Source of the DNA: Candidatus Nanopelagicales bacterium
GTDB taxonomy: Bacteria > Actinomycetota > Actinomycetes > S36-B12 > CAIYMF01
Assembly (NCBI GenBank): GCA_017848795.1
Contig: JAFIHG010000047.1
Coordinates: 62,001-126,000, forward strand
DNA length: 64,000 bases
Direction of reading: 5' to 3'
The position numbers and the translations under genes are program-made. Below, piece by piece: positions 1 to 28,234 of this stretch (position 1 is its first letter; every line of letters starts with the position of its first letter). A model generated the notes under the pieces. The model had not been told where the DNA came from, did not search any database, and was given only the letters and a program-made list of their open reading frames with translations.

Positions 1-413
1 GCACCGAGCTGCTGCAGGCCTACTCCCGGTACGGGTTGCCGCTCGGCGAGGCCTTCCAGCTGCGCGACGACGTCCTCGGAGTCTTCGGCGACCCCGCGCA
101 CACCGGCAAGCCCGCCGGCGACGACATCCGGGAGGGCAAGCGCACGGTCCTCGTCGCAGCCGCCGCCGAGCTGGGGACCGCCGCGCAGCGCCGCACCCTG
201 GAGCGCGACGTCGGCCGCGCCGACCTCGACGACGACGGCGTCGCCGAGGTGCGCGAGGTCATCGCCTCCTCCGGCGCGTTGGCCCGCGTCGAGAGCGACA
301 TCGCTGCCCTCACCCGAGAGTCGCTCGCCGCACTCGACACGGCCGAGCTGACGCCGGCGGCGCACACCGCGCTGGTCAGCCTCGCCAGGGACGCGACGGC
401 GCGTACCCGGTGA
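1..413 (+). CDS. crtE: Polyprenyl (geranylgeranyl) diphosphate synthase, C-terminal part
   Basis: This is the 3' part of a trans-isoprenyl diphosphate synthase; the reading frame is open from base 3 and the start lies before the window. The second aspartate-rich region is visible as FQLRDDVLGVFGD, followed by TGKPAGDDIREGKRTVL, which is characteristic of short-chain (C15-C20) synthases that condense isopentenyl diphosphate units. The stop overlaps the crtI start by four bases (GTGA), so the two are probably translationally coupled and the product feeds phytoene synthesis. Such synthases also sit beside mannosyltransferase genes in mycobacteria, where polyprenyl carriers are needed, so a role in both carotenoid and polyprenol supply is possible. 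The chain length made cannot be read from this part. Confidence 0.88.
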   Translation, partial: TELLQAYSRYGLPLGEAFQLRDDVLGVFGDPAHTGKPAGDDIREGKRTVLVAAAAELGTAAQRRTLERDVGRADLDDDGVAEVREVIASSGALARVESDIAALTRESLAALDTAELTPAAHTALVSLARDATARTR

Positions 414-1888
414 GCGCCCGCCGGGTCGCCGGACCCACCGACCGGGTGGTCGTCGTCGGTGCCGGGCTCGCCGGGCTGGCCTGCGCGCTGCACCTGGCGG
501 GTGCCGGACGCGAGGTCACCGTGCTGGAGCGCGAGGCGGTCCCGGGCGGGCGGGCCGGGCTGCTGGAGCACGACGGCTACCGCTTCGACACCGGTCCGAC
601 AGTGCTGACGATGCCCGAGCTCGCCGCGGACGCGTTCGCGGCCGTGGGTGAACGACTCTCGGACTGGCTCACCCTCGAGCGGCTCGACCCCGCCTACCGG
701 GCGCACTACCCCGACGGGACCACGCTGGACGTGCGGGCCGAGGTCGAGGACACCGCCGGCGAGATCGCCCGGCTGTGCGGACCCCGGGAGGCCGACGGGT
801 TCCGCCGGTTCGTGCGGTTCGCGACCCGGCTCTACCGCTACGAGATGACCGACTTCATCGACCGCAACTTCGACTCGCCGTTGGGTCTGCTGACCCCGGA
901 CCTGGCCCGGCTCGTCGCCCTCGGCGCTTTCCGTCGCCTCGCCCCCAAGGTCGGGCAGTTCCTGCGCGACCCGCGTACGACGAGGCTGTTCACCTTCCAG
1001 TCGATGTACGCCGGCATGGCGCCGCGCGACGCGCTCGCGATCTACGCCGTCATCGCGTACATGGACTGTGTGGCCGGCGTGTACTTCCCCCGCGGCGGCA
1101 TGCACGCCCTGCCCGCAGCGATGGCCGCGGTGGCCGCGCAGCACGGGGTCCGCTTCCGGTACGGCACGACGGTGACGAGCGTCGAACGCAGCGGCGACCG
1201 CGCGCACGGCGTGCGTACCGCCGACGGCGAACGCATCCCCGCGGACGTGGTCGTGCTGAACCCGGACCTACCGGTCGCGCAGCGCGACCTGCTCGGGATC
1301 CGGCCCCGCCGGTTGCGCTACAGCCCGTCCTGCTTCCTGCTGCTCGCCGGCTCACCGCGCGCCTATCGCGGCGCGGCCCACCACAACCTGCACTTCGGGC
1401 GCAGCTGGGACGGCGTCTTCGACGATCTGGTCCGTCGCGGCCGCCTGATGCAGGACCCGAGCCTGCTTGTCACCAACCCGACCCGCACCGACCCTTCCCT
1501 CGCCCCGCCGGGACGCCAGTCGTACTACGTGCTGGCGCCGACGCCGAACCTCGACGCCCCGATCGACTGGAGGATCACGTCGGGCCGCTACCGGGACGAG
1601 ATCGTGCGGACCCTGGAAGCACGCGGATACCACGGGTTCGCTGGCGGCCTGCAGGTGGTGCAGGTCACGACGCCCCTCGACTGGCAGGCGCGCGGCATGG
1701 CGCACGGCACCCCCTTCGCGGCCGCGCACACGTTCACCCAGACCGGTCCGTTCCGGCCTTCCAACCTGTGGGGGCGCAACGTCGTGTTCGCCGGATCCGG
1801 CACCCGTCCCGGAGTGGGGGTGCCGATGGTGCTGATCTCCGGGCGACTCGCTGCCGAGCGGATCACCGGCGCGCAGCGCGGCGGCTGA
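410..1888 (+). CDS. crtI: Phytoene desaturase (CrtI family)
   Basis: A 492-residue FAD-dependent desaturase that converts phytoene to lycopene by successive dehydrogenations. The N-terminal dinucleotide-binding fold [18 protein letters not shown] (about residues 12-30) is followed by PGGRAG. The C-terminal family signature near residues 455-485 includes FAGSGTRPGVGVPMVL, which closes the FAD site in this family. The length is normal for bacterial CrtI. The GTG start overlaps the upstream synthase stop, so the pair forms one transcription unit. The matching phytoene synthase (crtB) and lycopene cyclase genes lie 6-7 kb away, so the pathway is split within the window. Confidence 0.95.
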   Translation: MSARRVAGPTDRVVVVGAGLAGLACALHLAGAGREVTVLEREAVPGGRAGLLEHDGYRFDTGPTVLTMPELAADAFAAVGERLSDWLTLERLDPAYRAHYPDGTTLDVRAEVEDTAGEIARLCGPREADGFRRFVRFATRLYRYEMTDFIDRNFDSPLGLLTPDLARLVALGAFRRLAPKVGQFLRDPRTTRLFTFQSMYAGMAPRDALAIYAVIAYMDCVAGVYFPRGGMHALPAAMAAVAAQHGVRFRYGTTVTSVERSGDRAHGVRTADGERIPADVVVLNPDLPVAQRDLLGIRPRRLRYSPSCFLLLAGSPRAYRGAAHHNLHFGRSWDGVFDDLVRRGRLMQDPSLLVTNPTRTDPSLAPPGRQSYYVLAPTPNLDAPIDWRITSGRYRDEIVRTLEARGYHGFAGGLQVVQVTTPLDWQARGMAHGTPFAAAHTFTQTGPFRPSNLWGRNVVFAGSGTRPGVGVPMVLISGRLAAERITGAQRGG

Positions 1889-1903
1889 CCCGCACCGGGC
1901 TTG

Positions 1904-1909
1904 TACGCT
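1904..1909 (+). promoter_or_regulatory. Probable -10 element for the mannosyltransferase gene
   Basis: TACGCT lies 8 nt before the GTG at 1918 and there is no Shine-Dalgarno sequence, which fits a leaderless or nearly leaderless transcript. It sits in the short gap after crtI. Confidence 0.45.
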
Positions 1910-1917
1910 CGTGCCTC

Positions 1918-3507
1918 GTGGACGACCGCGGACCGAGCGACGGAGGTGTGCCCTCCGGCGAGCACCTGCAGCCGGTCCTCGCGTTCGCGCTGCGCCACGT
2001 CGTGCCGGGGCTGATCGGCGCCGTGATGCTGGCGATCGGTGCCGTCGGTGTGGGGTGGTTGCCGCCGCCCGCGCCGCCGTTCTACCAGGACAGCGCGCTG
2101 CCGGTCGTCGAATGGTTCCGCAGCGGAGTCGGCAGCTGGCTGGCACGCGCGTTCGTGATCGCCGGCGGCGCGCTGGTGCTGCAGAGCTGGCTGGTGCTCG
2201 GGATCGACGTGATGCGCGGGCGCATCACCGATCTGCGGCGGCTGTGGGGCGTCCTCGGCGCCTGGTGCGCGCCGCTGCTGCTCGTACCACCGCTGTTCAG
2301 CCGGGACATCTACTCCTACTACGTGCAGGGCAAGCTCTTCCTGTCGGGACAGAACCCCTACACCACCGGCGTGATCTCCGTTCCCGGCTGGTTCCAGGAC
2401 GGTGTCGACCCGCAGTGGGCGCAGACCCCGACGCCGTACGGTCCGTTGTGGCTGTCGCTGTCGCGCGGCGTCGTGGCGCTGTTCGGCGACAACGTCTACC
2501 TGGGAGTGCTGAGCTTCCGGCTGCTCGCGCTGGTCGGCGTCGTGCTGCTCGCGTACTTCGTGCCGCGCCTGGCATTCCTGAACGGGATCAGCGCTCCCAA
2601 GGCGCTCTGGCTCGGCGTGCTGAACCCGTTGGTGCTGCTGCTGTTCGTGCTCAGCGGCCACAACGACGCGCTCATGATGGGGTTGCTCGTCGCCGGCCTG
2701 GTCCTGGTCTGTGAACGACGCCCCGTGCTCGGCATCCTGCTCGTGACGGCAGCCATCGCGATCAAGCCGATCGCGTTGCTGGCGCTGCCGTTCGTCGGGC
2801 TGCTGTGGGCGGGCAGCCGAGCCGACGTGCGGACCCGGGTGCTGCGGTGGGTGCAGACCGGGGTCATCTCGGTGCTGTCCTTCTTCGGGATCTCAGCGGT
2901 CGTCGGGGCCGGCTTCGGATGGGTCGGCGCGCTCACCGCCCCCGGGGAGGTCACCACCTGGCTCTCGCCGCCGAGCGCGCTCGGCATGCTGATGGGCTGG
3001 TTCGGCCAGCAGATCGGGCTCGGTGATCACACCGACGGCCTGCTGGTCGTCACCCGTACGCTCGCCGCCCTGGTGGCGATCGCCATCGTGGGGCGACTCT
3101 GCCTGCGCCCCGAAGGACGCACCCCGATGCGCGGACTGGTCCTGGCGCTGCTGACGGTGATCCTGCTCGGCCCGACCTTCCAGACCTGGTACCTGCTCTG
3201 GATCATCCCGCTCGCAGCGGCCTCCGGGCTGGGTACGCGCGCGCTGCGCGCCACGCTGCTCGTCGTCGCCGGCGGCACGCTCTACAGCCTGTGCGAGACG
3301 AGCGCCACGTCCGACATCCACCTGGACATCAACGACGGGATCGCGATGCTGGTCACCGTCGCGGTCGTGGTCCTCGCGGTCGTGACCAGCGGCCGGGAGC
3401 GTTCGCTGCTGCTCGGCGACCAGGTCTCCCACGGGTTGCTGCCCGAGGACCGGCCGGCGCGCGCCCGCTACGACGCGCTCGTCGTGCGCCGGGTCCCCTC
3501 GCGGTGA
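1918..3507 (+). CDS. Polyprenol-phosphomannose-dependent alpha-1,6-mannosyltransferase (MptA/MptB family)
   Basis: A 529-residue GT-C-type membrane enzyme with about 12 hydrophobic segments. It transfers mannose from polyprenol phosphomannose outside the membrane to build the alpha-1,6-mannan backbone of lipomannan. The family motif SRDIYSYYVQGKLFLSGQNPY near residues 130-150 carries the acidic Arg-Asp pair expected at the first external loop; PTPYGPLW and GHNDALM follow. The frame stays open far upstream through crtI, but the GTG at 1918 is preferred because the N-terminus then starts just before the first membrane segment and a -10 element precedes it. The gene overlaps the next mannosyltransferase by four bases. 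I cannot separate MptA from MptB by eye. Confidence 0.9.
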   Translation: MDDRGPSDGGVPSGEHLQPVLAFALRHVVPGLIGAVMLAIGAVGVGWLPPPAPPFYQDSALPVVEWFRSGVGSWLARAFVIAGGALVLQSWLVLGIDVMRGRITDLRRLWGVLGAWCAPLLLVPPLFSRDIYSYYVQGKLFLSGQNPYTTGVISVPGWFQDGVDPQWAQTPTPYGPLWLSLSRGVVALFGDNVYLGVLSFRLLALVGVVLLAYFVPRLAFLNGISAPKALWLGVLNPLVLLLFVLSGHNDALMMGLLVAGLVLVCERRPVLGILLVTAAIAIKPIALLALPFVGLLWAGSRADVRTRVLRWVQTGVISVLSFFGISAVVGAGFGWVGALTAPGEVTTWLSPPSALGMLMGWFGQQIGLGDHTDGLLVVTRTLAALVAIAIVGRLCLRPEGRTPMRGLVLALLTVILLGPTFQTWYLLWIIPLAAASGLGTRALRATLLVVAGGTLYSLCETSATSDIHLDINDGIAMLVTVAVVVLAVVTSGRERSLLLGDQVSHGLLPEDRPARARYDALVVRRVPSR

Positions 3508-4883
3508 GCGCACCGGACCGCTGCGACCTCGCGGCCGCCGCTCCGCCCGAGCGCCGACGCGCGGCGCAGGGGCGGATGACCGCCGCCGCCGACGCGCTGT
3601 GGCGCGGGTGGGACGTCCTGCTCGGCCGCCACGCGTCCTGGGGCGCCGGTGCGCGCGGGATCGCCGTGGGCTGGGTGCTCTCCCGGGCGCTGATGGTGCT
3701 GCTGCTGGTCGGGCTCGAGTCGACGATCCTCAACGACGTCCGCTACTACGCCGCCGGCATCGCCGAAGTCGGTCCGGCCACGCCACCGGGTGCAGTGCTC
3801 CGGGAATACCCGACCCCGGTGCTGGGCCTGCTCGCCGTGCCGTGGCTGCTGGGGCGCAGCATCGGGGCGTACGTCGTGCTGTTCGTCGTGCTCATGCTCG
3901 CGTGCGACGCGGTGTTCACCTGGCTGCTCGCGCGGCACCGCCCGCGGCGCGCCGCGCGCGACGCGACGACGCTCTGGCTCGTCGCCGGCCCGGCGCTCGG
4001 CCCGCTCGCGCTGACCCGGTTCGACGTGCTGCCCGGCATGCTCGCCGGTGTCGCGGTGCTCTGCCTGGCCACCCGGCCCCGTACCGCGGGCGCGCTCGTG
4101 ACGGTCGGTGCCGCCATCAAGCTGTGGCCGGCGTTGCTGCTGCCCGCCGTGCTCGGTCCGCGCGCCGGACGGCTGCGGGTCCTCTCCGGCGCCGTCGTCA
4201 CCGGCGTCGTGGTGCTCGCCGGGTCACTCGCCGTCGGTGGCGTCGACCGGCTGCTCTCGCCACTGGAGTACCAGACCGACCGCGGGCTGCAGGTCGAGTC
4301 GGTCGCCGCGCTGCCCCTCATGCTGATCTGGTCGGTGGCGCACGGCGCATGGCAAATCACCTTCTCGCGCTTCATCACCTCCGAGATCAGCGGGCCGGGC
4401 GACCAGGTGATGCTGACCCTCGCGACGGCGTCGTCGCTGCTCGCGCTGGCGCTCATGGTGCTGCTGTGGCTGCGCGCGTGGCGGACCCGCACGGTGAGCC
4501 CGGCGGTCGTCGGCTGGGTGATGCTGACCTGCACCGCGCTGTTCATCGTGACCAACAAGGTGTTCAGCCCGCAGTACCTGCTGTGGCTCTCCCCGCTGGC
4601 GGTCGCTGTGGTGGCGCTCGGCCCGCGCCGCGACCGAGGGGCGCGCCGCTTCGCCGTGGTGCTCGTCGTCGTCGGAGCGCTCACCCAGGTGATCTATCCG
4701 AACGCGTACGTGCTCGTGACCGAGATGAGCTGGGCGAACCCGATCGGCGTGGGACTGCTGGCGGCACGCGACGTCGGCCTGCTCGGCCTCACCTGGTACG
4801 CCGCCGCGCGCGCATGGAACGGGACAGCACGGCCCGCGACCGGGCGGCGCCCATCGACCCGCGTCGCCGATCCGCGCGGCTGA
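3504..4883 (+). CDS. GT87-family (DUF2029) membrane mannosyltransferase
   Basis: A 459-residue multi-pass protein of the GT87/DUF2029 group, whose characterised actinobacterial members (PimE and the alpha-1,2-mannosyltransferase of lipomannan side branching) use polyprenol phosphomannose. About ten hydrophobic segments are visible, together with LTRFDVLPGMLAG near residue 170, KLWPALLLP, and FSPQYLLWLSPL near the C-terminus, all typical of the family. The GTG start overlaps the previous stop as GTGA, so the two mannosyltransferases should be made together; the first would extend the backbone and this one may add branches. It converges on the DUF2079 gene with only 10 bp between stops. The acceptor is inferred, not visible. 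Confidence 0.85.
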   Translation: MSAPDRCDLAAAAPPERRRAAQGRMTAAADALWRGWDVLLGRHASWGAGARGIAVGWVLSRALMVLLLVGLESTILNDVRYYAAGIAEVGPATPPGAVLREYPTPVLGLLAVPWLLGRSIGAYVVLFVVLMLACDAVFTWLLARHRPRRAARDATTLWLVAGPALGPLALTRFDVLPGMLAGVAVLCLATRPRTAGALVTVGAAIKLWPALLLPAVLGPRAGRLRVLSGAVVTGVVVLAGSLAVGGVDRLLSPLEYQTDRGLQVESVAALPLMLIWSVAHGAWQITFSRFITSEISGPGDQVMLTLATASSLLALALMVLLWLRAWRTRTVSPAVVGWVMLTCTALFIVTNKVFSPQYLLWLSPLAVAVVALGPRRDRGARRFAVVLVVVGALTQVIYPNAYVLVTEMSWANPIGVGLLAARDVGLLGLTWYAAARAWNGTARPATGRRPSTRVADPRG

Positions 4884-4893
4884 GACCTCGACG

Positions 4894-6348
4894 TCAGGGA
4901 CCGTACTGCGCGCAGAGCGGGTCGGTAGGGATGTCGCGGTGCAGCAGCACGATGCTGCCGTCGCGCGCGACGACCCGGAACCCCTCGCCGGTCGCGGTCC
5001 GCAGGTAGTCGTGCGGGTCGGGCCCGAGGTAACCGGTCTCGTCCTGCGAGAGGTCGAGCAGCACCCACCCCGCCGGGGGTCCGGGCATTCCGGGGTTGGT
5101 CACGTAGTCGCGGTGGGTGAGCTGGGGGACGGCGCGGTCGTCGGCCTGCACGCATACGCCGTCCGGGATCAGCGGCAGGACCCGCGCGAGCGACTCGCTG
5201 CGCGGGGTCTGCTGCCACGCCTCGCCGGTCACCAGCCGCCCGACGGGGAACTGCGTCTGCAGCGCGAGCGATCCGACCAGCGGGATCGCGGCCACGAGTG
5301 CTGCCCACGGCAGCACCCACCGGCGCAGCGCCGGCCACCGCGCGCGCAGCCGTCCCACCGTGTCGACGGCGCCGAGGAACAACACCGGCGCCAGCACCCC
5401 GGTGTAGTGGAACTCGGTGGTCCACAACGCTTCCCGGGAGCTGAAGAACCGCTCCGCGAAGATCGGCAACGTCAGCAGGACGTACGGCGAGAACAACGCG
5501 AGGAACAGGGTCGTCGCGCCGAAAGCCCACAGCAGCGTGTAGGTCTTGGTGACCGGCGTGAGGAACTCCCGCAGCGTCCCGAGCGGGTCGCGGACGACGT
5601 GCAGCGCCGCGGCCGGCAGGTTCGGGCCGAGCGAGTCGTACGTCCAGTACGCGAACGTGCCGCTCGCCGCGAACGTCGGTATCACCCATTCGGTCGCCAG
5701 CAGGTACCCGCCCACCCCGAGGACGGCGAGCACGGCTGCCAGCAGGTAGCGCCGGCGCAGCAGCACGATCAGCGCCACCATCAGCACCAACGCACCCATG
5801 TCCTCGCGCACGAGCAGCAGCAGCGCGCACAGCCCCACCACCCATGCCCAGGAACCGCGAGCACGTCCGTCGCCGCCTGCAGGACCGCCGTCGCCGCGTG
5901 CCGATGGCGCACCCTTGACGGCGTAACGATCAACAACATCGATCAGGAACGCGAGGATCGGCACCGCGAACGCGACCTCGTGGAAGTCGAAGTCGACCAT
6001 CCCCTGCAGCGGCCAGCACAGCGCGTAGCCGACGACGACGAGGACGGTCGGCACCCGCTCGAGCCGGCGGCGGGTGAAGCGCCAGACCGGGATCACCGAC
6101 AGCGCCAGCAGGAATGCCTGCGCCAGCAGCAACATCCGCGGGTCGTCCCAGACCCAGTACAGCGGTGCGAGCACCGCGATGATCGGGTGGAAGTGGTCGC
6201 CGAGCAGGTTGTAGTGCAGCCCCTTGAGCGGGACCTCGGGCGCCTGGAAGTGGGCGTACGCCTGGATCGCCTGGTCGAAGATGCCGAGGTCGTACCCGGC
6301 CGTCAGGTAGGTGTGCTGGCGCAGCACCGCGTAGCTGCCGAACACCAC
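4894..6348 (-). CDS. DUF2079 multi-pass membrane protein
   Basis: At least 484 residues with about ten membrane segments. The family signature TAGYDLGIFDQAIQAYAHF lies at the N-terminus and HFHPIIAVLAPLY follows. DUF2079 proteins resemble GT-C glycosyltransferases, but I know of no assigned reaction. The GTG at 6348 cuts into the first membrane helix. The same frame is open upstream (LLPYLIAAAVFVVFGSYAV) without ATG, GTG or TTG back into the barstar gene, so the real start may be a CTG at 6447 that overlaps the barstar stop as CTGA; that would give 517 residues. The gene is probably the third gene of the RNase-barstar operon. Confidence 0.8.
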   Translation of the reverse strand: MVFGSYAVLRQHTYLTAGYDLGIFDQAIQAYAHFQAPEVPLKGLHYNLLGDHFHPIIAVLAPLYWVWDDPRMLLLAQAFLLALSVIPVWRFTRRRLERVPTVLVVVGYALCWPLQGMVDFDFHEVAFAVPILAFLIDVVDRYAVKGAPSARGDGGPAGGDGRARGSWAWVVGLCALLLLVREDMGALVLMVALIVLLRRRYLLAAVLAVLGVGGYLLATEWVIPTFAASGTFAYWTYDSLGPNLPAAALHVVRDPLGTLREFLTPVTKTYTLLWAFGATTLFLALFSPYVLLTLPIFAERFFSSREALWTTEFHYTGVLAPVLFLGAVDTVGRLRARWPALRRWVLPWAALVAAIPLVGSLALQTQFPVGRLVTGEAWQQTPRSESLARVLPLIPDGVCVQADDRAVPQLTHRDYVTNPGMPGPPAGWVLLDLSQDETGYLGPDPHDYLRTATGEGFRVVARDGSIVLLHRDIPTDPLCAQYGP

Positions 6349-6443
6349 GAAGACGGCGGCCGCGATCAGGTACGGCAGCAGGCGGTCCCGCGAGCCCTGC
6401 CCGGACCCGGCGGCTCTGGCGCGTGTCGGAGCCGGTGACGCGG

Positions 6444-6938
6444 TCAGGACTCCTCGCCTCCGGGCGGCTCGTCGTACGGCTCGTCCGGGTCGATGTCGTC
6501 CAGCTCGAGATCCATGTCGGGTTCGTCGGCCTCGTCCGGTCCCTCGCCTACTCGCAGCACGACGAACGGCACCCCGTCCACCCCGAGGGTGCGCGCGGTG
6601 TCCTCGAAGACGTCGAGCGCGGTCGCGTACTCCTCAGGGTCGCTCTCCGCGAACAGCGCCCAGTCGGTCCAGATGACGACCGTGCCGTCGGCGCCTCGGC
6701 CGGTCGGCAGGTCCGCGAGGCTCTCCTCGAGCGCGTCCCAGTTGTGCCCGAACCACTCCGGCAGCCCGAAGGCGTCCTGGCACAGCTCGAGGAAGCCGGC
6801 CTTGTCCTCGACCTCCGTACCCTCGAGCAGCACGCAGTACCGGCCCAGCGCCCGGGCCGCCTCCTCGAGCTCGGCGGGCGGCGCCGAGAACCGTACGACG
6901 CCGCGCGCGGCGGCGAGCTGCTGGCGGCTCACGACCAT
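6444..6938 (-). CDS. Barstar-family ribonuclease inhibitor
   Basis: A 164-residue cytoplasmic protein with the barstar fold signature: an N-terminal strand (YCVLLEGTEVEDKAGFLELC, about residues 34-53), then FGLPEWFGHNWDALEESLAD (about 56-75), which corresponds to the helix that plugs the RNase active site in the known barnase-barstar complex. A strongly acidic tail (roughly residues 132-164) extends beyond the normal 90-residue domain. The start lies inside the last codons of the RNase gene (10-bp overlap), so inhibitor and enzyme are co-translated from one message. The role is presumably to protect the producer from its own extracellular RNase during or before export. The acidic tail might mimic nucleic acid, which is an inference. 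Confidence 0.9.
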   Translation of the reverse strand: MVVSRQQLAAARGVVRFSAPPAELEEAARALGRYCVLLEGTEVEDKAGFLELCQDAFGLPEWFGHNWDALEESLADLPTGRGADGTVVIWTDWALFAESDPEEYATALDVFEDTARTLGVDGVPFVVLRVGEGPDEADEPDMDLELDDIDPDEPYDEPPGGEES

Positions 6939-7522
6939 GGCGCGATGATCTCCCGGAACGTCCGGTAGTGGTCGGTGGTCCAGAACCGCGACCCGTCGGC
7001 CCCCGTGACGATCCGCCGCGGGCCGCGGTCGCCCGCGCCGGGGGTTGTGACCGTGTACTCGTGGTAGAAGCCGGAGTCCTTGCGCGGCAGGCGCTTCTCG
7101 CGGTTGTCGAAGATGAGCCCGTCGTTCGGGTACGGGAACGGCCCGCCGTCCTTGATGACGCGCAGCGTGGCCACCGCCTGCTTCGGCAGCGCCTTCAGGG
7201 TGATCGTCGCCAGCTTCGTCGTGGCCTTCGGCGGCGCGAGCGTGTCCGCGTCGGGGTAGTTGGTCGGGTCCGGGGGCCGGGTGGTCGGGCCTGTCGGCTG
7301 CGAGGAGCCGCTCGGTCCCGCCGTGGGGCCCTTGGTGGGTCCGCCCGTCGGATCGGACGTGCCGGGTGACGGCGCGGAGGCGCTGGGAGAGGCGGGCGAC
7401 GAGCCGGCGGGAGCGGTGTCCGCGCCGCCCGGCGCCGCCGGCGCGCCGGAGCAGCCGGCGAGCACGACCGCGAGCACGCCGGCGAGCAGCACCGATCCGG
7501 TGGTGGTGGGTCTGGCGCGCAC
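6929..7522 (-). CDS. Lipoprotein ribonuclease of the RNase Sa (N1/T1) family
   Basis: A 197-residue secreted guanyl-specific RNase. The N-terminus has a signal sequence ending in the lipobox LAGC (Cys24), so the protein should be lipid-anchored outside the membrane, unlike the freely secreted Streptomyces enzymes. A Pro/Ser/Thr/Gly-rich linker spans about residues 25-95. The catalytic domain follows: PFPYPNDGLIFDNRE (128-142), YHEYTV with the general base Glu155, RGPRRIVTG with Arg166-Arg170, and TTDHYRTF with the general acid His185. These match RNase Sa positions 54, 65/69 and 85. It is immediately followed by its probable inhibitor. The GTG start has an AGGAGCGGAG upstream. It diverges from crtB. 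Confidence 0.92.
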   Translation of the reverse strand: MRARPTTTGSVLLAGVLAVVLAGCSGAPAAPGGADTAPAGSSPASPSASAPSPGTSDPTGGPTKGPTAGPSGSSQPTGPTTRPPDPTNYPDADTLAPPKATTKLATITLKALPKQAVATLRVIKDGGPFPYPNDGLIFDNREKRLPRKDSGFYHEYTVTTPGAGDRGPRRIVTGADGSRFWTTDHYRTFREIIAPWS

Positions 7523-7682
7523 TGCTCGCTCCGCTCCTGGGTCGTCGTCGGGCCGCGAAGGCCGTCACGGGGTTCCGTAGGCACCGACGTGCGGGGCCGC
7601 GCGGGAGGTTCCGCCCGCCGGGGACCACGATCCTGGCACGGCTGGTCGGCGGCGCGGTCTCACCCGATGGGAGGATCGCCCG

Positions 7683-8636
7683 GTGGCCGCACGTGAGCTC
7701 ACCGCCGCCGGTGTCACCGATCCGGCGCTCCGTGCGTCGTACGACCGCTGCCGGGCCCTGCTCGCCCGGCACGGCCGCACGTACCACCTCGCGACGGCGC
7801 TGCTGCCGCCGGCCACCCGCCCGTACGTCCACGCGCTGTACGGCTTCGCGCGGTGGAGCGACGAGATCGTCGACGGTCCGGACAGCGAGGGGCGTGCCGC
7901 GCGGCTCGCCGCGTGGACCGAGCTCGTGCTGGGCGACCTGGACCGGGGGCACTCGTCCCACCCGGTCGCCGCGGCGGTCGTCGACACCGCGCAGCGGTGG
8001 GCGATCCCGCGCCGGCACTTCGAGGTGTTCCTGGCCGCGATGGCGGCCGACCTGACGGTCCGCGCGTACCGGACGTACGACGAGCTGCGCGCCTACATGG
8101 ACGGGTCGGCGGCGGCGATCGGGCTGGCGTTGTTGCCCGTGCTCGGCGCGAGCTCGTCCGCGGCGAGCGCACCGGCCCGGGACCTCGGGTACGCGTTCCA
8201 GCTCGCGAACTTCGTACGCGACGTCGGGGAGGACCTCGACCGGGGCCGGGTGTACCTGCCGGAAGAGGACCTGGAGCGGTTCGGCAGCAGCCGCGCGGAG
8301 GTCGAGCGGCGCGTCGTCACACCGGCGCTGCACGCCGCCCTCGCCTTCCAGGTGGCGCGGGTGCACGAGCTGCGGGAGGCCGCAGCGCCCGGGATCGCGC
8401 TGCTGCACCCGGCGGTGCAGCCCGGCATCCGCGCCGCGCTGGTGCTCTACTGCGCCATCGCCGATGCGGTGGCCGACCTGGACTACCAGGTGTTCGACGC
8501 CCGCGCGCGCGTGCGGCTGCGGCGGCGGGTCAGCGTCGCCGCGCAGGCGTGGGTCGCCGCGGGGCGGGCGCGGCGCCGCCACGGCCCGGTTCCTCTCCCG
8601 CGACAGGGTGTTTCCCCCAGTCTCCAGGCTCGGTGA
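7683..8636 (+). CDS. crtB: Phytoene synthase
   Basis: A 317-residue squalene/phytoene synthase that joins two geranylgeranyl diphosphates head to head. Both aspartate-rich magnesium sites are visible: ARWSDEIVDG (about residues 56-65) and FVRDVGEDLDRGRVYLP (about 176-192), with the AFQLANF stretch before the second. The start GTG at 7683 follows GGGAGG by about 7 nt. The gene converges on crtYd. It supplies phytoene to CrtI, encoded 6 kb upstream. Hydroxysqualene-type activity is the main alternative, but the neighbouring lycopene cyclase genes favour carotenoid synthesis. Confidence 0.93.
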   Translation: MAARELTAAGVTDPALRASYDRCRALLARHGRTYHLATALLPPATRPYVHALYGFARWSDEIVDGPDSEGRAARLAAWTELVLGDLDRGHSSHPVAAAVVDTAQRWAIPRRHFEVFLAAMAADLTVRAYRTYDELRAYMDGSAAAIGLALLPVLGASSSAASAPARDLGYAFQLANFVRDVGEDLDRGRVYLPEEDLERFGSSRAEVERRVVTPALHAALAFQVARVHELREAAAPGIALLHPAVQPGIRAALVLYCAIADAVADLDYQVFDARARVRLRRRVSVAAQAWVAAGRARRRHGPVPLPRQGVSPSLQAR

Positions 8637-8653
8637 GTCACCTCGCTGCGCGA

Positions 8654-8983
8654 TCAGCGCTGCAGGCCGCGCCGGCCCCACCACACCCACAGCGAGAGCG
8701 TCGCGACGACGAGCGCGAAACCGAACAGCAGGTCCTCCACCGGGGCGTACGCGATCCGGCCCTCCCCGAGGAACACCACCTCGCCCGACCCGAGCGAGCT
8801 CGCTGCGGCGTACCTGACCACTCCGGTGCCCGACAGCACGGCGTTGGTCAGCAGCTGGAAGCCGAACAGGATCGCGTAGGTCACCCAGAAGACCTTGCGC
8901 CCCAGCAGCCGGGTCCGCAGCACCCACACGTCGAGGACGACAGCGCACACCACCCCGAGCACCGCGAGCTGCGTGTAGGTCAT
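8654..8983 (-). CDS. crtYd: Lycopene cyclase domain protein, CrtYd type
   Basis: A 109-residue membrane protein with three hydrophobic segments and the family motif YAPVEDLLFGFALV near residue 80. In actinobacteria, two small polypeptides of this fold act together to cyclise the ends of lycopene (or of C50 carotenoids). The ATG at 8983 overlaps the stop of the partner gene as ATGA, so the two subunits are coupled. No C50 elongase (crtEb/lbtA type) is seen in the window, so a beta- or gamma-carotene product is more likely, but the ring type cannot be read from sequence alone. A longer frame to 9142 antisense to the partner is an artefact. Confidence 0.88.
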   Translation of the reverse strand: MTYTQLAVLGVVCAVVLDVWVLRTRLLGRKVFWVTYAILFGFQLLTNAVLSGTGVVRYAAASSLGSGEVVFLGEGRIAYAPVEDLLFGFALVVATLSLWVWWGRRGLQR

Positions 8984-9318
8984 CACCGGTCCTGCTCGTC
9001 GCCGACGGGCCAGCCGCGTACCGTCCGCACCGCCTCGAGCGCGAGGATCGCCGCCAGCGGCACCACCAGGAAGAACAGCGCCTCCTCCAGCGGCAGCCCG
9101 CCGGGGAGCACCACGCCGACGAACCAGTCCAGGTCGAACCACCAGTGGCCCTGCGCCACCGCGTAGAGGTCCCAGGCGGCGAACACCGCGGCGACCGGCA
9201 GCACGGTGGCCAGCAGCCGCTTCCAGCGGGCGAGCACGCGCACGTGCAGCACGAGCTCGAGCCAGCCGCTGGCCAGCAGGATGAAGACCAGGACGGCGAG
9301 GTAGGTCAGATGCCGCAC
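8983..9318 (-). CDS. crtYc: Lycopene cyclase domain protein, CrtYc type
   Basis: A 111-residue partner of the preceding cyclase subunit, with three hydrophobic segments and the motif [15 protein letters not shown] near residues 72-86; the Pro-x-Glu-Glu is conserved in heterodimeric and fused lycopene cyclases. The GTG at 9318 begins the conserved HLTYL start of this family; upstream residues in the same frame read antisense to thiE and are rejected. It lies 13 bp after the thiE stop on the same strand, so it may be co-transcribed with thiE, which would be an unusual pairing. Confidence 0.88.
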
Positions 9319-9331
9319 GGACCGGCCTGCC

Positions 9332-9976
9332 TCAACCGTGCAGCGCGGTGCTGAGTTCGCGCGCCGCCGCACCGGGGTCGGCCGCCTCGGTGAGCGCGCG
9401 TACGACGACCACCCGCGTCGCGCCCGCCGCGAGCACCTGCGGCAGGCGCGCGGCGTCGATCCCGCCGATGGCGAACCAGGGCCGGGCCGGCGCGGTCGCG
9501 GCAACCGCCCGTACCAGCTCGAGCCCGGGCGCGGGCCGGCCCGGCTTGGTCGGGGTCGGCCAGCACGGGCCGACGGCGACGTAGTCGACACCGGGCTCCT
9601 GCAGCGCCGCCGTCGACTCGTGCAGCGCGTGGGAGGAGCGTCCGACGAGCACGTCGTCGCCGATGATCGACCGGGCCAGTGGCACCGCGAGGTCGTCCTG
9701 GCCCAGGTGCAGCACATCCGGGGCGGCGGCGAAGGCGATGTCCGCCCGGTCGTTCACGGCGGCGAGCGCTCCGTGCCGGTGGGCGGCCCGGGTGACGATC
9801 TCGAGCGCGGCGAGCTCGTCGCGCGCCTCCATCCCCTTCTGGCGCAGCTGGACGACATCGACGCCGCCGGCGAGCACCTCGTCCAGGAAGGTCTCGAGAT
9901 CGGCCGGCCCGCTGCGCGCGTCCGTGCACAGGTACAGCCGCGCGTCCGCCAGCCGCGCCACCCGTTCGTCCCGCAT
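9332..9976 (-). CDS. thiE: Thiamine-phosphate synthase
   Basis: A 214-residue TIM-barrel enzyme that joins the thiazole and pyrimidine moieties into thiamine phosphate. Visible motifs are [14 protein letters not shown] (pyrimidine and pyrophosphate binding), [40 protein letters not shown] and [11 protein letters not shown], in the standard order. The ATG at 9976 is preceded at 6 nt by TTGGAT, a poor -10, and there is no clear ribosome-binding site. It is transcribed away from the TPP riboswitch and the thiOSG genes, so this copy is probably not under that switch. Confidence 0.94.
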
Positions 9977-10084
9977 GCCCTCATCCAACCCCAACGCACC
10001 GGACGGGGCCCGCACGCCGCCGAGCGGCGGCCCGCGCCCATCCGGCCGCGGGCGGCGCGGCACGCCCGGAGGTACGCTGGCGAG

Positions 10085-10178
10085 GTCCCCGGGAGTCGCG
10101 GTACGGCGCGGCTGAGAGGGCGAGCCGACACCTCGCCGACCGGACGAACCTGATCCGGCTCGCACCGGCGGAGGGAGT
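10085..10178 (+). promoter_or_regulatory. TPP (thi-box) riboswitch
   Basis: The region contains the conserved CTGAGAG core (10111-10117) and the second conserved block GAACCTGATCCGG (10145-10157), followed by CACCGGCGGAGGGAG, in the spacing of thiamine pyrophosphate aptamers. The purine-rich GGAGGGAG at the 3' end lies 5-8 nt before the thiO GTG. The aptamer's closing stem can therefore sequester the ribosome-binding site, and control is probably at translation initiation. It would switch off thiO-thiS-thiG when thiamine pyrophosphate is abundant. Confidence 0.92.
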
Positions 10179-10181
10179 GAC

Positions 10182-11362
10182 GTGGACCCCAGCGGCACCG
10201 CACGGCCCGACGACGACGACGTCGTCGTCGTCGGCGCGGGACTGGTCGGCCTGTCGAGCGCCTGGCAGCTCGCGCGCCGTGGCGTGACGGTGACCGTGAT
10301 CGACCCCGACCCCGGACACGGCGCGTCGTGGGCGGCGGCGGGCATGCTCGCCCCGGTCACCGAGGCGACGTACGGCGAGCAGGACCTGCTCGAGCTGCTG
10401 CTCGCCGGTGCCCAGCGGTGGCCGGCGTACGCCGCCGAGCTGGGCGCCGACTCCGGACGGGATCCAGGGCTGCGCGAGGAGGGCACGCTCGTGCTGGCGC
10501 GCGACGCCGGTGACCTCGCCGAGCTGGAGCGCTGGGCCGGGTACGCCGAGGGTCTCGGCCTGCCGGTGCAGCACCTGACCGGCCGCGAGTGCCGCGCCCA
10601 CGAACCGCTGCTCGCCCCCCAGCTGCGCGCCGGGCTGCTCACCGGGGACCACAGCGCCCACAACCGGCAGACCGTCACGGCGCTGCTGGCGGCGTGCGAG
10701 AACCGCGGCGTGCGTGTGCTGCGCCAGCGGGTCGAACGGGTGGACGTCGCGGACGGCCGGGTCGCCGGGGTCCGGCTCGCCGACGGCGCCGCACGTCCGG
10801 TGCGTACGGTCGTCGTCGCCGCAGGTGCCTGGAGCGGGCAGCTGCTGGCCGGCGTGCTGGACGTCCCGGTACGCCCGGTGCGCGGCACGATCCTGCGCCT
10901 CGGCACACCACCGGACTACCTGGCCGCCGGGGGCGTGCTGTCCCGGACCGTGCGCGGCACCGTCGCCGGCGCGCACGTGTACCTGGTGCCGCGCGCCGAC
11001 GGAGAGCTGGTCGTCGGGGCGACGAGCGACGAGGTCGGGTTCGACGACCGGCCGACCGCCGGCGGCGTGTGGCAGCTGCTGCGCGACGCCCGCGAGCTGC
11101 TGCCGGTCGTCTCGGAGCTCACCTTCGTCGAGGCGTGGAGCGGGTTGCGTCCGTACGCCCCCGACAACGCGCCGATGGTGGGGACGACCGGGATCGAGGG
11201 GCTGCTCGTCGCGACCGGGCACGGGCGCAACGGGGTCCTGCTCTCCCCCGCGACCGCCGACGCGGTCGTCGGGCTGGTGCTCGACGGTACACCGGGCGGG
11301 ATCTGGAAGCCGTTCTCACCGTTAAGATTCACCCAGGTACCTGTGACCCAGGAGGTGGGTTC

Positions 11363-11366
<4 letters not shown>
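10182..11366 (+). CDS. thiO: Glycine oxidase ThiO
   Basis: A 394-residue FAD-dependent oxidase that makes dehydroglycine for the thiazole ring of thiamine. The FAD-binding GxGxxG is [18 protein letters not shown] near residues 10-27, followed by [13 protein letters not shown], typical of ThiO and other DAO-family members. [13 protein letters not shown] and [11 protein letters not shown] at the C-terminus are the family's second signature. The GTG at 10182 lies just after the riboswitch ribosome-binding site. The stop overlaps thiS, placing thiO, thiS and thiG in one operon. Confidence 0.94.
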
Positions 11367-12377
<1,011 letters not shown>

Positions 12378-12388
12378 GGCGATCCCTC

Positions 12389-12432
12389 GTTGGCGGGTGT
12401 CGTGCACGTATACCGGCACCACACCCGCCAAC
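12389..12432 (+). repeat. Intergenic palindrome, family A, copy 1
   Basis: A 44-bp imperfect palindrome with perfect 12-bp arms (GTTGGCGGGTGT and ACACCCGCCAAC) around a centre containing GTGCACGTATACC; several inner positions also pair. It lies just after thiG and could end the thi transcript or be a REP-like element. A second copy follows 15 bp later. Confidence 0.85.
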
Positions 12433-12447
12433 GAAACGAGCCCGTGC

Positions 12448-12491
12448 GCTGGCGGGTGTCGTGCGCGTATAGCCGCATGACACCCGCCAAC
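12448..12491 (+). repeat. Intergenic palindrome, family A, copy 2
   Basis: A 44-bp near copy of the preceding palindrome, in the same orientation, with arms GCTGGCGGGTGTC and GACACCCGCCAAC (one mismatch) and centre GTGCGCGTATAGCCGC. The left arm has one substitution against copy 1, while the stem is kept, which suggests selection for folding. Confidence 0.85.
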
Positions 12492-12534
12492 GCGGCCCGG
12501 CGCGCCGACAAGGGCTCCGGGCGCGAGCGGAACG

Positions 12535-12540
12535 TACGAT
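12535..12540 (+). promoter_or_regulatory. Probable -10 element of the PASTA kinase gene
   Basis: TACGAT ends 6 nt before the GTG at 12547 and no Shine-Dalgarno sequence is present, which is consistent with a leaderless transcript. Confidence 0.5.
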
Positions 12541-12546
12541 GCCCGG

Positions 12547-14475
12547 GTGGACACGAGTGCCGGACGCGCTGGGGGCGCGACGGCGGTGCGCGACGCGATG
12601 ATCGGCCGGCTGGTCGATGGCCGTTACCTGATCCAGTCGCGGATCGCCCGCGGCGGCATGGCCACCGTCTACCTCGCCACCGACCAGCGCCTGGACCGGG
12701 CGGTGGCGCTCAAGGTGATGCACGCCGGGCTGGCCGAGGACGAGGCGTTCGTCGCGCGGTTCCAGCGGGAGGCCAAGGCGGCCGCCCGGCTCACCCATCC
12801 GCACGTGGTGTCGGTGTATGACCAGGGCGAGGCCGACGGGCTGGTCTACCTCGCGATGGAGTACGTCGCCGGGCGCACCGTCCGGGACGTGCTGCGCGAG
12901 CACGGCCGGCTCACCCCGGCACAGGCGCTGACCGTGCTGGACCCCGTGCTGCAGGCGCTCGTGGCCGCGCACCGCGCCGGATACGTCCACCGCGACATCA
13001 AGCCCGAGAACGTGCTCATCGGCGACGACGGGGCGGTGAAGGTCGCCGACTTCGGGCTCGCCCGGGCGATCAGCACCGAGAGCTCGACCACCACCCACGG
13101 CGTACTGATCGGGACCGTCGCGTACCTGTCCCCCGAGCAGGTCGAGCGCAGCATCGCCGACGCCCGCAGCGACGTGTACGGCTGCGGGATCCTGCTGTAC
13201 GAGATGCTCACCGGGGCCGTGCCCTTCGCCGGGGAGACACCGCTCGCAGTCGCCTACCAGCACGTGAACGCCGTGGTGCCGCGCCCGTCGAGCGTGCGCC
13301 GCGAGGTGCCGCGGGTCGTCGACGACCTGGTCGTACAGGCGACCCGCCGCGACCCGGACGGACGCTGGCCCGACGCCCAGGCGTTCCTCGACGCGGTACG
13401 CGGCGCACGCAGCACCCTGCCCGCGCCCCAGCCGCTCACCGTCGACCTCACCGACGGCGCCCGCACCCTGGTGGTGCCGCTCACCGACACCGCCCACCCG
13501 AGCGCTCCGCCCGCCGCACCGCACAAGACGAGCCGCCGCCAGCGGCGAGCCGCACGCCGCGCGGCCCGCGGCGGGCGGCGACGCGGGCGGGGCTGGGTCG
13601 TGCTGCTGGCGATCCTGCTCGCGGCGGCCCTCGTCGGTGGAGCGGGCTGGTGGTACGGCTCGGCGCGCGCGGTCCCCGTACCCGGGGTGACCGGCAAGAC
13701 GATGTCGCAAGCCCAGCAGGCGTTCGCCGGCTCGGAGCTGACGATCGAGGCGGGCGAGCAGGCGTACAGCGAGTCGGTCGCCAAGGGACGCATCATCACG
13801 ACCGACCCGGCGCCCGGCGGCGAGGCGCGGGTCGGTTCGGTCGTACGCGCGACCGTCTCGCTCGGCCCCGAACGGTTCACCGTGCCGGACCTCGCCGAGC
13901 GGTCGGTGGCCGACGCCCGTACCGCCCTGTCCGAGGGCAACCTGCTGGCCGCCAAGACCGTGCAACGCCAGTACGACGAGTCAGTGACCAAGGGCCTGGT
14001 GATCGCCACCACCCCCAAGCCGGGCGCCCAGCTGCGGCGCGGCACGCCGGTCACGCTGATCGTCAGCCGCGGCCCGCAGCCGATCCCGGTGCCGGGCGGG
14101 CTCGCGGGCTCCACCGTCGCCGACGCCAAGGCCGCGCTCGCGCGGGTCGGGCTCGAGGCGACGACCAGCGAGCAGTTCTCGATGGCGCAGCCGGCCGGGC
14201 GGGTGATCTCCACCAGACCGGCGGCGGGCAAGAAGTTGCACCGCGGCGACACCGTGGCGCTCGTGGTCAGCAACGGCCCGCCCCCGGTGGACGTCCCCAG
14301 CGTGCGTGGCATGGGCGAGAGCGACGCGGTCACCAAGCTGCGCTCGCTCGGCCTGAAGGTGAAGGTGAACAAGCCGGCGCTCGGCTACACCCCCTTCGGT
14401 CTGGTGCAGGGGCAGAGCGCGGTCGGGCAGGGTGCGCTGCGCAAGGGCGACACCATCACCATCACCGTCGTCTGA
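12547..14475 (+). CDS. Membrane Ser/Thr protein kinase with four PASTA domains
   Basis: A 642-residue PknB-like receptor kinase. The kinase domain spans about residues 20-285 with the glycine loop ARGGMATVY, VALKVM lysine, catalytic HRDIKPENVL, and the DFGLAR metal site. The activation segment (TESSTTTHGVLIGTVAYLSPEQ) has several Ser/Thr. A basic stretch precedes one transmembrane helix (about 353-373). Four extracellular PASTA repeats follow (about 377-642), ending in DTITITVV. PASTA repeats bind peptidoglycan fragments or lipid II, so the kinase probably reports cell-wall state. The related mycobacterial kinase near a DAHP synthase (PknL) lacks PASTA domains, as I recall, whereas a streptomycete relative has them. 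Confidence 0.93.
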   Translation: MDTSAGRAGGATAVRDAMIGRLVDGRYLIQSRIARGGMATVYLATDQRLDRAVALKVMHAGLAEDEAFVARFQREAKAAARLTHPHVVSVYDQGEADGLVYLAMEYVAGRTVRDVLREHGRLTPAQALTVLDPVLQALVAAHRAGYVHRDIKPENVLIGDDGAVKVADFGLARAISTESSTTTHGVLIGTVAYLSPEQVERSIADARSDVYGCGILLYEMLTGAVPFAGETPLAVAYQHVNAVVPRPSSVRREVPRVVDDLVVQATRRDPDGRWPDAQAFLDAVRGARSTLPAPQPLTVDLTDGARTLVVPLTDTAHPSAPPAAPHKTSRRQRRAARRAARGGRRRGRGWVVLLAILLAAALVGGAGWWYGSARAVPVPGVTGKTMSQAQQAFAGSELTIEAGEQAYSESVAKGRIITTDPAPGGEARVGSVVRATVSLGPERFTVPDLAERSVADARTALSEGNLLAAKTVQRQYDESVTKGLVIATTPKPGAQLRRGTPVTLIVSRGPQPIPVPGGLAGSTVADAKAALARVGLEATTSEQFSMAQPAGRVISTRPAAGKKLHRGDTVALVVSNGPPPVDVPSVRGMGESDAVTKLRSLGLKVKVNKPALGYTPFGLVQGQSAVGQGALRKGDTITITVV

Positions 14476-14563
14476 TCCGCGCCCGGTCCGCCCCGGTCGC
14501 CACCCCTGGTCCGCCCCAGGTCCACATGGTGGGACCGGTGTCCGGCGGACGGACAAGGTGGCG

Positions 14564-14569
14564 TAGCAT
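14564..14569 (+). promoter_or_regulatory. Probable -10 element for the aromatic leader peptide
   Basis: TAGCAT ends 7 nt before the GTG at 14577. Transcription would begin at or next to the start codon, giving a leaderless leader peptide. No convincing -35 hexamer is seen. AAGGTGG at 14555-14561 is too far from the GTG for a normal ribosome-binding site. Confidence 0.5.
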
Positions 14570-14576
14570 CCCCGTC

Positions 14577-14642
14577 GTGCGGCAGTTCTGGTTCGGCTAT
14601 GCCTTCCCCCTCGGGGCTCCCCCGACGGGCCGGCACCGCTGA
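14577..14642 (+). CDS. Aromatic-rich leader peptide, putative attenuator of the DAHP synthase gene
   Basis: A 21-codon open frame reads M-R-Q-F-W-F-G-Y-A-F and continues to a TGA at 14640-14642. Five of the seven residues at positions 4-10 are aromatic, and all three aromatic amino acids are present. It lies 95 bp before a DAHP synthase, the first enzyme of aromatic synthesis, and in front of mutually exclusive hairpins. Leader peptides of this kind let ribosome stalling on scarce aminoacyl-tRNA control transcription, as in trp and pheA operons. The peptide itself is probably not functional. The reading is direct; the regulatory role is inferred. Confidence 0.72.
   Translation: MRQFWFGYAFPLGAPPTGRHR
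14611..14625 (+). promoter_or_regulatory. Leader hairpin competing with the antiterminator
   Basis: TCGGGG (14611-14616) pairs with CCCCGA (14620-14625) around a CTC loop. The overlapping bases CGGGGCTC (14612-14619) can instead pair perfectly with GAGCCCCG at 14664-14671. That pairing would block the downstream hairpin at 14664-14691, so these structures exclude each other. This is the arrangement expected of an attenuator. Confidence 0.55.
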
Positions 14643-14663
14643 CGCGCCGCCACCGCCCACCCA

Positions 14664-14691
14664 GAGCCCCGAGCCGATCCGGCCGGGGCTC
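14664..14691 (+). terminator. Attenuator-type terminator hairpin before the DAHP synthase gene
   Basis: GAGCCCCG (14664-14671) and CGGGGCTC (14684-14691) form a perfect 8-bp stem, extended inward by GCC/GGC after one bulged base. There is no long U run, which is common for actinobacterial terminators. The left arm is also complementary to the leader-peptide segment 14612-14619. A further 6-bp hairpin (14701-14720) lies just before the ribosome-binding site. Confidence 0.55.
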
Positions 14692-14736
14692 CGTCATGAG
14701 CGGGCCGGGCGGCGGGCCCGAACCGAAGGAGAACCC

Positions 14737-15777
14737 ATGGTCGTCGTGATGGCACCGGACGCCACCGAGGCCGACCTCGCCGAGGTCGTCACCCGCGTCA
14801 CCGGCGCGGGCGGCGAGGCCTTCGTCAGCCGCGGCGAGTCCCGCACCGTGATCGGCTTGGTCGGCGACATCGACCGCTTCCACGGTCTGAACCTGCGCGC
14901 GCTCACCGGCGTCGCCGAGGTGGTGCGCGTCTCCACGCCGTACAAGCTCGTCTCCCGGGAGCACCACGCCCCCTCGACGGTGCACGTGGGCGAGGCGCGC
15001 GTGCCGATCGGGCCGGGCGGGTTCACCCTGATCGCCGGGCCCTGCGCCGTCGAGACGGCGGAGCAGACGCTGCAGGCCGCGCAGATGGCCGTCGCGGCCG
15101 GCGCGAGCCTGCTGCGCGGCGGGGCGTTCAAGCCGCGCAGCTCGCCGTACGCCTTCCAGGGCCTGGGCGAGGCGGGGCTGGCGATCCTCGCCGACGTCCG
15201 CGCCGAGACCGGGCTGCCGATCGTCACCGAGGTGGTCGACGCGCACGACGTGGAGCTCGTCGCCTCGTACGCCGACATGCTGCAGGTGGGTACCCGCAAC
15301 GCGCAGAACTTCGCGCTGCTGGCCGCGGTCGGGCAGGCCGGCAAACCGGTGATGCTCAAGCGGGGTATGAGCTCGACCCTCGAGGAGTGGCTGCTCGCCG
15401 CCGAGTACGTCGCGCAGCGCGGCAACCTCGCGATCGTGCTGTGTGAGCGCGGCATCCGCACCTTCGAGAAGGCGACCCGCAACACCCTCGACATCTCGGC
15501 GGTGCCGGTGTGCCAGTCGCTCTCGCACCTGCCGGTCATCGTCGACCCGTCCCACTCCGGCGGCCGGCGCGACCTGGTCGTACCGCTGTCGCGTGCGGCG
15601 ATCGCGGTGGGCGCGGACGGCATCATCGTGGATGTGCACCCGCATCCGGACGTCGCGCTGTGCGACGGGCCGCAGGCGCTGGTCGACGGCGACCTGCGCG
15701 ACCTCGCGGCGGCCGTGCGCAACCTCCCGCCGCTGGTCGGCCGCACCCCGGTCGGCGCACCGCTCCGGGTCGGGTGA
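14737..15777 (+). CDS. aroF: 3-deoxy-7-phosphoheptulonate synthase, type I beta
   Basis: A 346-residue DAHP synthase that condenses erythrose 4-phosphate and phosphoenolpyruvate, the entry step of the shikimate pathway. The N-terminal ferredoxin-like regulatory domain (about 1-70) is of the type known from Thermotoga. The barrel shows LIAGPCAVET, LRGGAFKPRSSPYAFQG, VGTRNAQNF, MLKRGMSST, CERGIRTFE, IVDPSHSGGRRDLV and VDVHPHPD, with the metal-binding Cys, His, Glu and Asp in place. The ATG at 14737 follows GAAGGAG by 5 nt; a longer frame from 14599 overlaps the attenuator and is rejected. A second, unrelated class II DAHP synthase lies 4-5 kb downstream. Confidence 0.93.
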   Translation: MVVVMAPDATEADLAEVVTRVTGAGGEAFVSRGESRTVIGLVGDIDRFHGLNLRALTGVAEVVRVSTPYKLVSREHHAPSTVHVGEARVPIGPGGFTLIAGPCAVETAEQTLQAAQMAVAAGASLLRGGAFKPRSSPYAFQGLGEAGLAILADVRAETGLPIVTEVVDAHDVELVASYADMLQVGTRNAQNFALLAAVGQAGKPVMLKRGMSSTLEEWLLAAEYVAQRGNLAIVLCERGIRTFEKATRNTLDISAVPVCQSLSHLPVIVDPSHSGGRRDLVVPLSRAAIAVGADGIIVDVHPHPDVALCDGPQALVDGDLRDLAAAVRNLPPLVGRTPVGAPLRVG

Positions 15778-15840
15778 ACCACGCGGGCCTGGGGATGTGA
15801 TGCACGCCACGTCCCGTACGGTTGGCGCGCCTCGCGCAGG

Positions 15841-15859
15841 ACAGGTTAGCCTCCCCTAA
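15841..15859 (+). promoter_or_regulatory. DtxR/IdeR iron box before bfd
   Basis: The site starts ACAGGTTAGCCT and ends CCCCTAA. By eye it matches the 19-bp consensus TTAGGTTAGSCTAACCTAA at 15 of 19 positions. It lies 31 bp before the bfd TTG. IdeR-type regulators repress or activate from such sites depending on position, so iron-dependent control of bfd, and perhaps bfr, is expected. Confidence 0.75.
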
Positions 15860-15890
15860 CGACATCGCCGATGTTGACGGGAGCCCCGCG

Positions 15891-16094: not shown

Positions 16095-16113
16095 ACCCGG
16101 CGCGGCGCCGGGC

Positions 16114-16119
16114 TACAGT
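16114..16119 (+). promoter_or_regulatory. Probable -10 element of bfr
   Basis: TACAGT ends 7 nt before the bfr ATG and no ribosome-binding site is present. This suggests bfr has its own leaderless transcript in addition to any read-through from bfd. Confidence 0.5.
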
Positions 16120-16126
16120 CGCGGGC

Positions 16127-28231: not shown

Positions 28232-28234
28232 CCG

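Follow-up and report, generated by a model that had tools for sequence, protein, structure and literature searches.

The window, by which we mean the whole 64,000-nucleotide stretch of DNA analysed here, carries an RNase gene and a barstar gene that overlap on the minus strand, beside a divergent crtB-like gene. The features are the following.

6444..6938, minus strand: barstar coding sequence, 164 aa, PF01337
6447..6545, minus strand: acidic C-terminal tail of the barstar, residues 132-164, net charge -17 by charge calculation
6714..6764, minus strand: RNase-binding loop of the barstar, LPEWFGHNWDALEESLA, residues 59-75, with the G31, N33 and D35 equivalents intact
6929..6938, minus strand: overlap of the RNase and barstar genes, from the sequence, with probable translational coupling
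6929..7522, minus strand: RNase Sa-type prolipoprotein coding sequence, 197 aa, GTG start, with PF00545 and RNase Sa2 matches
6941..7216, minus strand: RNase Sa domain, approximately residues 103-194, with E142, E155, R166, R170 and H185 and no Cys, by alignment to RNase Sa and Sa2
7217..7450, minus strand: low-complexity P/S/T/A/G linker, residues 25-102, by composition
7451..7522, minus strand: signal peptide with lipobox L-A-G-Cys24, from the sequence, the Cys of the family, and Lgt and LspA in the genome
7523..7682, no strand: intergenic region between the RNase-barstar pair and the divergent crtB, from the sequence
7683..8636, plus strand: divergent crtB-like squalene/phytoene synthase, a conserved neighbour (PF00494, E 4.6e-65; synteny)

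The RNase matches PF00545 with an E-value of 1.1e-20 and 74.4 bits (curated cut-off 24), and its nearest solved structures are RNase Sa2 (1py3, E 1.3e-31) and then RNase Sa. GGAG lies 6 nt 5' of the GTG start codon. The N-terminus, MRARPTTTGSVLLAGVLAVVLAGC, consists of a short basic n-region, a hydrophobic core and a lipobox (pattern applied: [LVI][ASTVI][GAS]C), and the genome encodes Lgt and LspA with one gene each, so that by sequence criteria the protein is predicted to be lipidated. Residues 25-100 contain 19 P, 11 S, 10 T, 13 A and 11 G. Alignment with RNase Sa places its catalytic residues E54, R65, R69 and H85 at E155, R166, R170 and H185 of the window protein, and the guanine site N39/R40/E41 at N140/R141/E142. 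The Cys7-Cys96 disulfide of the characterised Streptomyces enzymes is absent, because the equivalent of Cys7 is Thr108 and the window domain is free of Cys. This pair is no defining mark of the RNase Sa family, since Cys-less members were common in our survey and barnase itself is without the disulfide. The calculated pI is 10.1 for the RNase domain and 4.1 for the barstar.

The barstar matches PF01337 with an E-value of 9.6e-24 and 83.6 bits (curated cut-off 23.4), and its gene overlaps that of the RNase by 10 nt from ATG 6938 or by 4 nt from GTG 6932. The loop LPEWFGHNWDALEESL contains G31, N33 and D35, which are known positions of the RNase-binding loop, and has an acidic residue (E) at position 39; E occupies both the W38 and the D39 positions of the Bacillus amyloliquefaciens barstar. 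RNase Sa and barstar are found together in one solved entry, 1ay7, which counts for the pair. Single-sequence structure predictions gave pLDDT values of 47 and 41, too low for use. The original prediction had named a lipobox at Cys24, a long Pro/Ser/Thr linker, an intact active site, an overlapping inhibitor gene and an acidic extension of the barstar, and all of these structural details were confirmed.

A search of the whole 3.4 Mb genome found exactly one PF00545 gene and one PF01337 gene. Promoter and terminator scans found nothing, with no sigma-70-like site in 7523..7682, and consensus scans are weakly informative at 74% GC. Window positions 410-16606 form a carotenoid locus with crtI, glycosyltransferases, crtB and a split lycopene cyclase. 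Beyond these crt genes, the same interval contains apparent thiE, thiO and thiG genes, a PASTA kinase, an aroF-like synthase and a bacterioferritin pair, and the crt-to-kinase gene order is kept in several families. The G+C content dips to 0.674 at window positions 28001-30000, compared with about 0.73.

A search for related loci gave one match (L003), and the surveys were therefore made by whole-genome searches; several of the genomes examined are incomplete, fragmented assemblies. The window's family (f1) comprises 17 genomes, and 15 of them have the RNase, in single copy each. All 15 proteins have a lipobox-type Cys closing the signal peptide (LAGC, LSGC, LTGC, LAAC, VAGC, VAAC, LTAC, LSAC or TAAC) ahead of a variable linker of about 33 to 87 aa. 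A barstar gene follows on the same strand in 14/15, which is every RNase on an uncut contig; in the exception, G016, a contig end cuts the locus and the barstar is found at the beginning of a different contig. In all 13 loci with long flanks the pair occupies the same position next to crtB, and the genes run glycosyltransferase(s), barstar, RNase and divergent crtB, usually joined by crtI, lycopene cyclase and the PASTA kinase. This shared gene order indicates, at the level of sequence, that the pair is vertically inherited in the family. The lipobox-linker-RNase-barstar arrangement, for which a search in other genomes had been suggested, thus recurs across the family, and together with the presence of Lgt and LspA this recurrence goes far beyond chance.

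Both genomes of the family that are without the RNase, G001 and G010, retain the barstar. In G001, which belongs to the window's genus and is 72% complete, one contig contains glycosyltransferases, barstar, DUF2079 and lycopene cyclase, and both the RNase and crtB are missing from the interval. In G010, the RNase C-terminus is absent from the 245 bp upstream of the barstar. Profile searches found barstar-fold genes in three genomes of family f4 and 20 of family f7; in the loci that were read they occupy the same position beside the crt genes, and families f26 and f30 of the class likewise have barstar-fold genes there. In these four families the barstar adjoins crtB and room for an RNase gene is lacking between them. 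PF00545 is absent from all f7 genomes, from G041 and from five tabulated f26 and f30 genomes; in G237 (f30, not tabulated) a weak PF00545 match lies on a different contig. The f7 proteins are true relatives: 8/8 in a sampled alignment match Pfam Barstar, and the f7 profile matches the profile of RNase-linked barstars with 99.2% probability (E 1.9e-19). The 30 RNase-less loci (L124, L125, L195-L204, L206-L212, L219, L255-L259 and L264-L268) come from f1 (2), f4, f7, f26 and f30, and their barstar genes are mostly divergent from crtB. In the barstar tree, rows L092 and L201 derive from wrong or partial matches, and fine conclusions were not drawn from this tree.

The binding loop differs between the two groups of barstars. 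G31, N33 and D35 are all present in 14/14 crt-locus barstars with an RNase and in 4/4 RNase-linked barstars at other loci of the order (total 18/18), but in 0/30 RNase-less crt-locus barstars. Among the other RNase-linked barstars of the class, 41/44 carry all three residues. Conservation in the presence of the RNase is 0.91 for the loop against 0.64 for the rest of the protein, and in its absence 0.39 against 0.50. When lineages rather than sequences are counted (7 with and 6 without RNase, in units chosen by us), the difference has a p-value of 0.0006. Two f4 genomes, G019 (L019, L195) and G040 (L041, L196), have two barstars each: the one in an RNase-barstar pair at another locus has an intact loop, and in the crt-locus one the loop is eroded and the acidic tail is long. 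Acidic tails like that of the window also occur on the RNase-less barstars of G001 and f4, and most RNase-linked barstars are without one; we therefore rejected the tail as a part of RNase inhibition.

While the loop erodes in RNase-less barstars, the WxxW and N-terminal GVxRW motifs are retained. Among closely related RNase-less barstars with measurable dS, dN/dS is mostly 0.05-0.27, which indicates purifying selection; higher values were obtained in f4 (0.22-0.43) and for one f26 pair (0.45), and the window/G001 comparison gave 0.55. These sequence patterns are most simply explained if the RNase partner maintains the loop and if the barstar scaffold serves a further purpose, which persists when the RNase is lost or absent. 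The dependence of the loop residues on the partner is evidence that inhibitor and enzyme form a real pair in the window. Repeated loss of the RNase is favoured over a gain in the window's family, because eroded loops are unlikely precursors of a canonical loop.

The original prediction also stated that known RNase Sa-type enzymes are secreted free. Tethering is not exceptional in Actinomycetes. PF00545 occurs in 81 of 395 genomes of the class; after members of the order and one named Streptomyces locus were added, 93 RNases were classed by their N-terminus, and 92 of these also by barstar linkage. An RNase was counted as tethered if it has a lipobox, or a positively flanked hydrophobic helix without obvious cleavage site, with helix and cleavable signal told apart by eye. 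By this definition the majority, 62 of the 92, are tethered and 30 are secreted. A barstar gene lies directly downstream in 58/62 tethered and 4/30 secreted RNases (Fisher p 1e-14, from counts that are not independent), and of the four tethered RNases that depart from this, two (L105, L107) have it directly upstream. With respect to cysteines, a barstar is downstream of 6/32 RNases with the Cys pair and 56/60 Cys-less RNases. The anchor state changes only about four times on the RNase tree, and the independent-pairs test, with a single supported pair, was without power; the association of tether and barstar is largely clade-bound, being inherited within clades. The lipobox and the membrane helix each require at least two changes on starred branches of the tree. 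This suggests that being tethered counts more than the kind of anchor, and since orthologues use either one, the tether itself is apparently kept.

Nearly every genome that encodes a secreted RNase has a barstar gene at some other place. For this reason, and because the trait is clade-bound, the idea that a disulfide-free domain requires an inhibitor was reduced to a suggestion. At L119 and L122, an RNase Sa-family domain forms the C-terminus of very large frames, of 2112 and 1473 codons respectively, next to a barstar gene, and these are probable polymorphic toxins. L139 (G008:C91, near 72700) is a second, divergent barstar like those beside the large-frame toxins, and an RNase Sa match is absent from its fetched flank. 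In G281 (L108/L154), a Streptomyces-type secreted RNase domain has no in-frame signal peptide and is perhaps broken, and the sole barstar of this genome carries N33D in the loop.

We put a probability of roughly 65% on the reading that the locus encodes a guanyl-specific RNase tethered to the membrane, together with a cytosolic inhibitor whose production is coupled to it. The enzyme would be synthesised as a prolipoprotein of the Sec type and anchored by Lgt and LspA, through Cys24, in the outer leaflet of the cytoplasmic membrane; the flexible linker of roughly 75 residues would position the catalytic domain in the wall zone. The tethered domain might then cleave incoming or environmental single-stranded RNA at G. 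Its most likely use would be the scavenging or clearing of RNA at the cell surface, a use for which we argue by exclusion of rivals. RNase copies that fold before export could act inside the cell, because the domain is without a disulfide. Coupled translation of the overlapping barstar gene would deliver the inhibitor at once, and the barstar would plug the RNase active site with its canonical loop. Tethering combined with cytoplasmic protection by barstar, which had been proposed from the outset, is well supported, including by the loss of the binding loop where the RNase is absent. The clade-bound association and the E at the W38 and D39 positions count against this explanation. The barstar of the window locus probably also has a second, RNase-independent role.

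In a rival account the barstar gene is what the locus always keeps, and its function would be independent of the RNase and tied to the carotenoid region. The RNase would then be an accessory, present there in no family but the window's; it would be either an ancestral partner that the others have lost or a gene that arrived later. The barstar-fold genes at the crt place in f4, f7, f26, f30, G001 and G010, the purifying selection on RNase-less copies and the motifs retained despite loop erosion agree with it. However, no part of the protein is better conserved in the window's family than the loop, so RNase inhibition is seemingly under selection there, and the PASTA kinase, which has no obvious carotenoid link, shares the synteny, so that position alone is no proof of a carotenoid role. 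We consider this account unlikely, though it is the strongest of the rivals. Contact-dependent killing, which the original prediction offered as one use, would make the RNase a contact-dependent or polymorphic interbacterial toxin and the barstar its immunity protein. The order of toxin then immunity gene, with the barstar overlapping directly downstream, resembles such systems, and RNase Sa-family domains do end large frames next to barstars at L119 and L122. In the window protein, however, PF00545 was the only domain found, and trafficking, repeat and pre-toxin domains were not; the genome has a single RNase and a single barstar, and all RNase-bearing members of the family have the same RNase domain at the same, vertically syntenic locus. 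Simple barnase-barstar pairs have moreover been described as "without notable polymorphism" (Zhang et al. 2012, PMC3482391). Contact killing is therefore improbable, as neither toxin-domain swapping nor a delivery module was seen.

A role in RNA defence at the cell surface, such as one directed at RNA phage or at the uptake of nucleic acids, would suit an RNase on the outer side of the membrane, where we infer it to lie. No PADLOC model matched, though, and the neighbourhood holds carotenoid and thiamine genes rather than a defence-gene context, which makes this use very improbable. Finally, the protein could be an ordinary secreted RNase cleaved by signal peptidase I, with an incidental Cys. 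The characterised RNase Sa enzymes are secreted, but a lipobox-type Cys in 15/15 orthologues of the family despite diverged linkers, together with Lgt and LspA in the genome, leaves this as the least probable of the explanations.

The tethered RNase with its coupled inhibitor is thus the reading that we prefer for the window. For the wider set of loci, we tentatively propose, at somewhat below even odds, that several actinobacterial families share a barstar-fold protein as a long-standing component of their carotenoid locus, with an RNase-independent function. Its loop would be kept only beside a tethered RNase, and elsewhere the scaffold would be repurposed, possibly for carotenoid synthesis or an envelope process. 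Barnase-barstar is a textbook protein pair, and natural tethered relatives of it are common in Actinomycetes. The crt locus is a natural experiment in which the enzyme is repeatedly absent, the inhibitor gene stays and exactly the enzyme-binding loop is eroded. It makes testable both the role of a barstar without an RNase to inhibit and the reason why RNases of this group are kept at the cell membrane.

A literature search that covered few subscription journals found no paper on a lipoprotein RNase Sa or on a barstar beside crt genes, and the crt-locus barstar without RNase is the part without precedent in the literature searched. Orphan barstar-like genes are nevertheless known elsewhere: Salmonella STM3363 encodes a barstar-domain protein whose deletion affects swarming, and the cited passage names no RNase partner for it (PMC4534456). 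The crt-locus barstars differ from it in phylum and locus, being actinobacterial and adjoining crt genes. The window RNase has the same domain as RNase Sa, Sa2 and Sa3 of Streptomyces (PF00545), with all catalytic and guanine-site residues, and its domain is 59% identical to a Streptomyces tateyamensis relative. Unlike these enzymes, it has a lipobox, a long linker, an overlapping barstar gene and no Cys pair. Bacillus barnase-barstar (PF00545/PF01337) consists of a disulfide-free exported RNase and a cytosolic barstar inhibitor. The window pair shares with it the canonical barstar loop and the disulfide-free RNase, but the window RNase belongs to the Sa branch and is predicted to be tethered, the genes overlap, and the window barstar has N-terminal and acidic C-terminal extensions. 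As in the Tox-Barnase/Imm-Barstar polymorphic toxins of Zhang et al. 2012, the RNase precedes the barstar, but a trafficking module, C-terminal swapping and an immunity array are absent from the window locus, and its synteny is vertical. In that paper, Imm-Barstar is placed with barnase-like toxins, and simple barnase-barstar pairs are noted as widespread (PMC3482391); the window pair is therefore a variant of this already known type.
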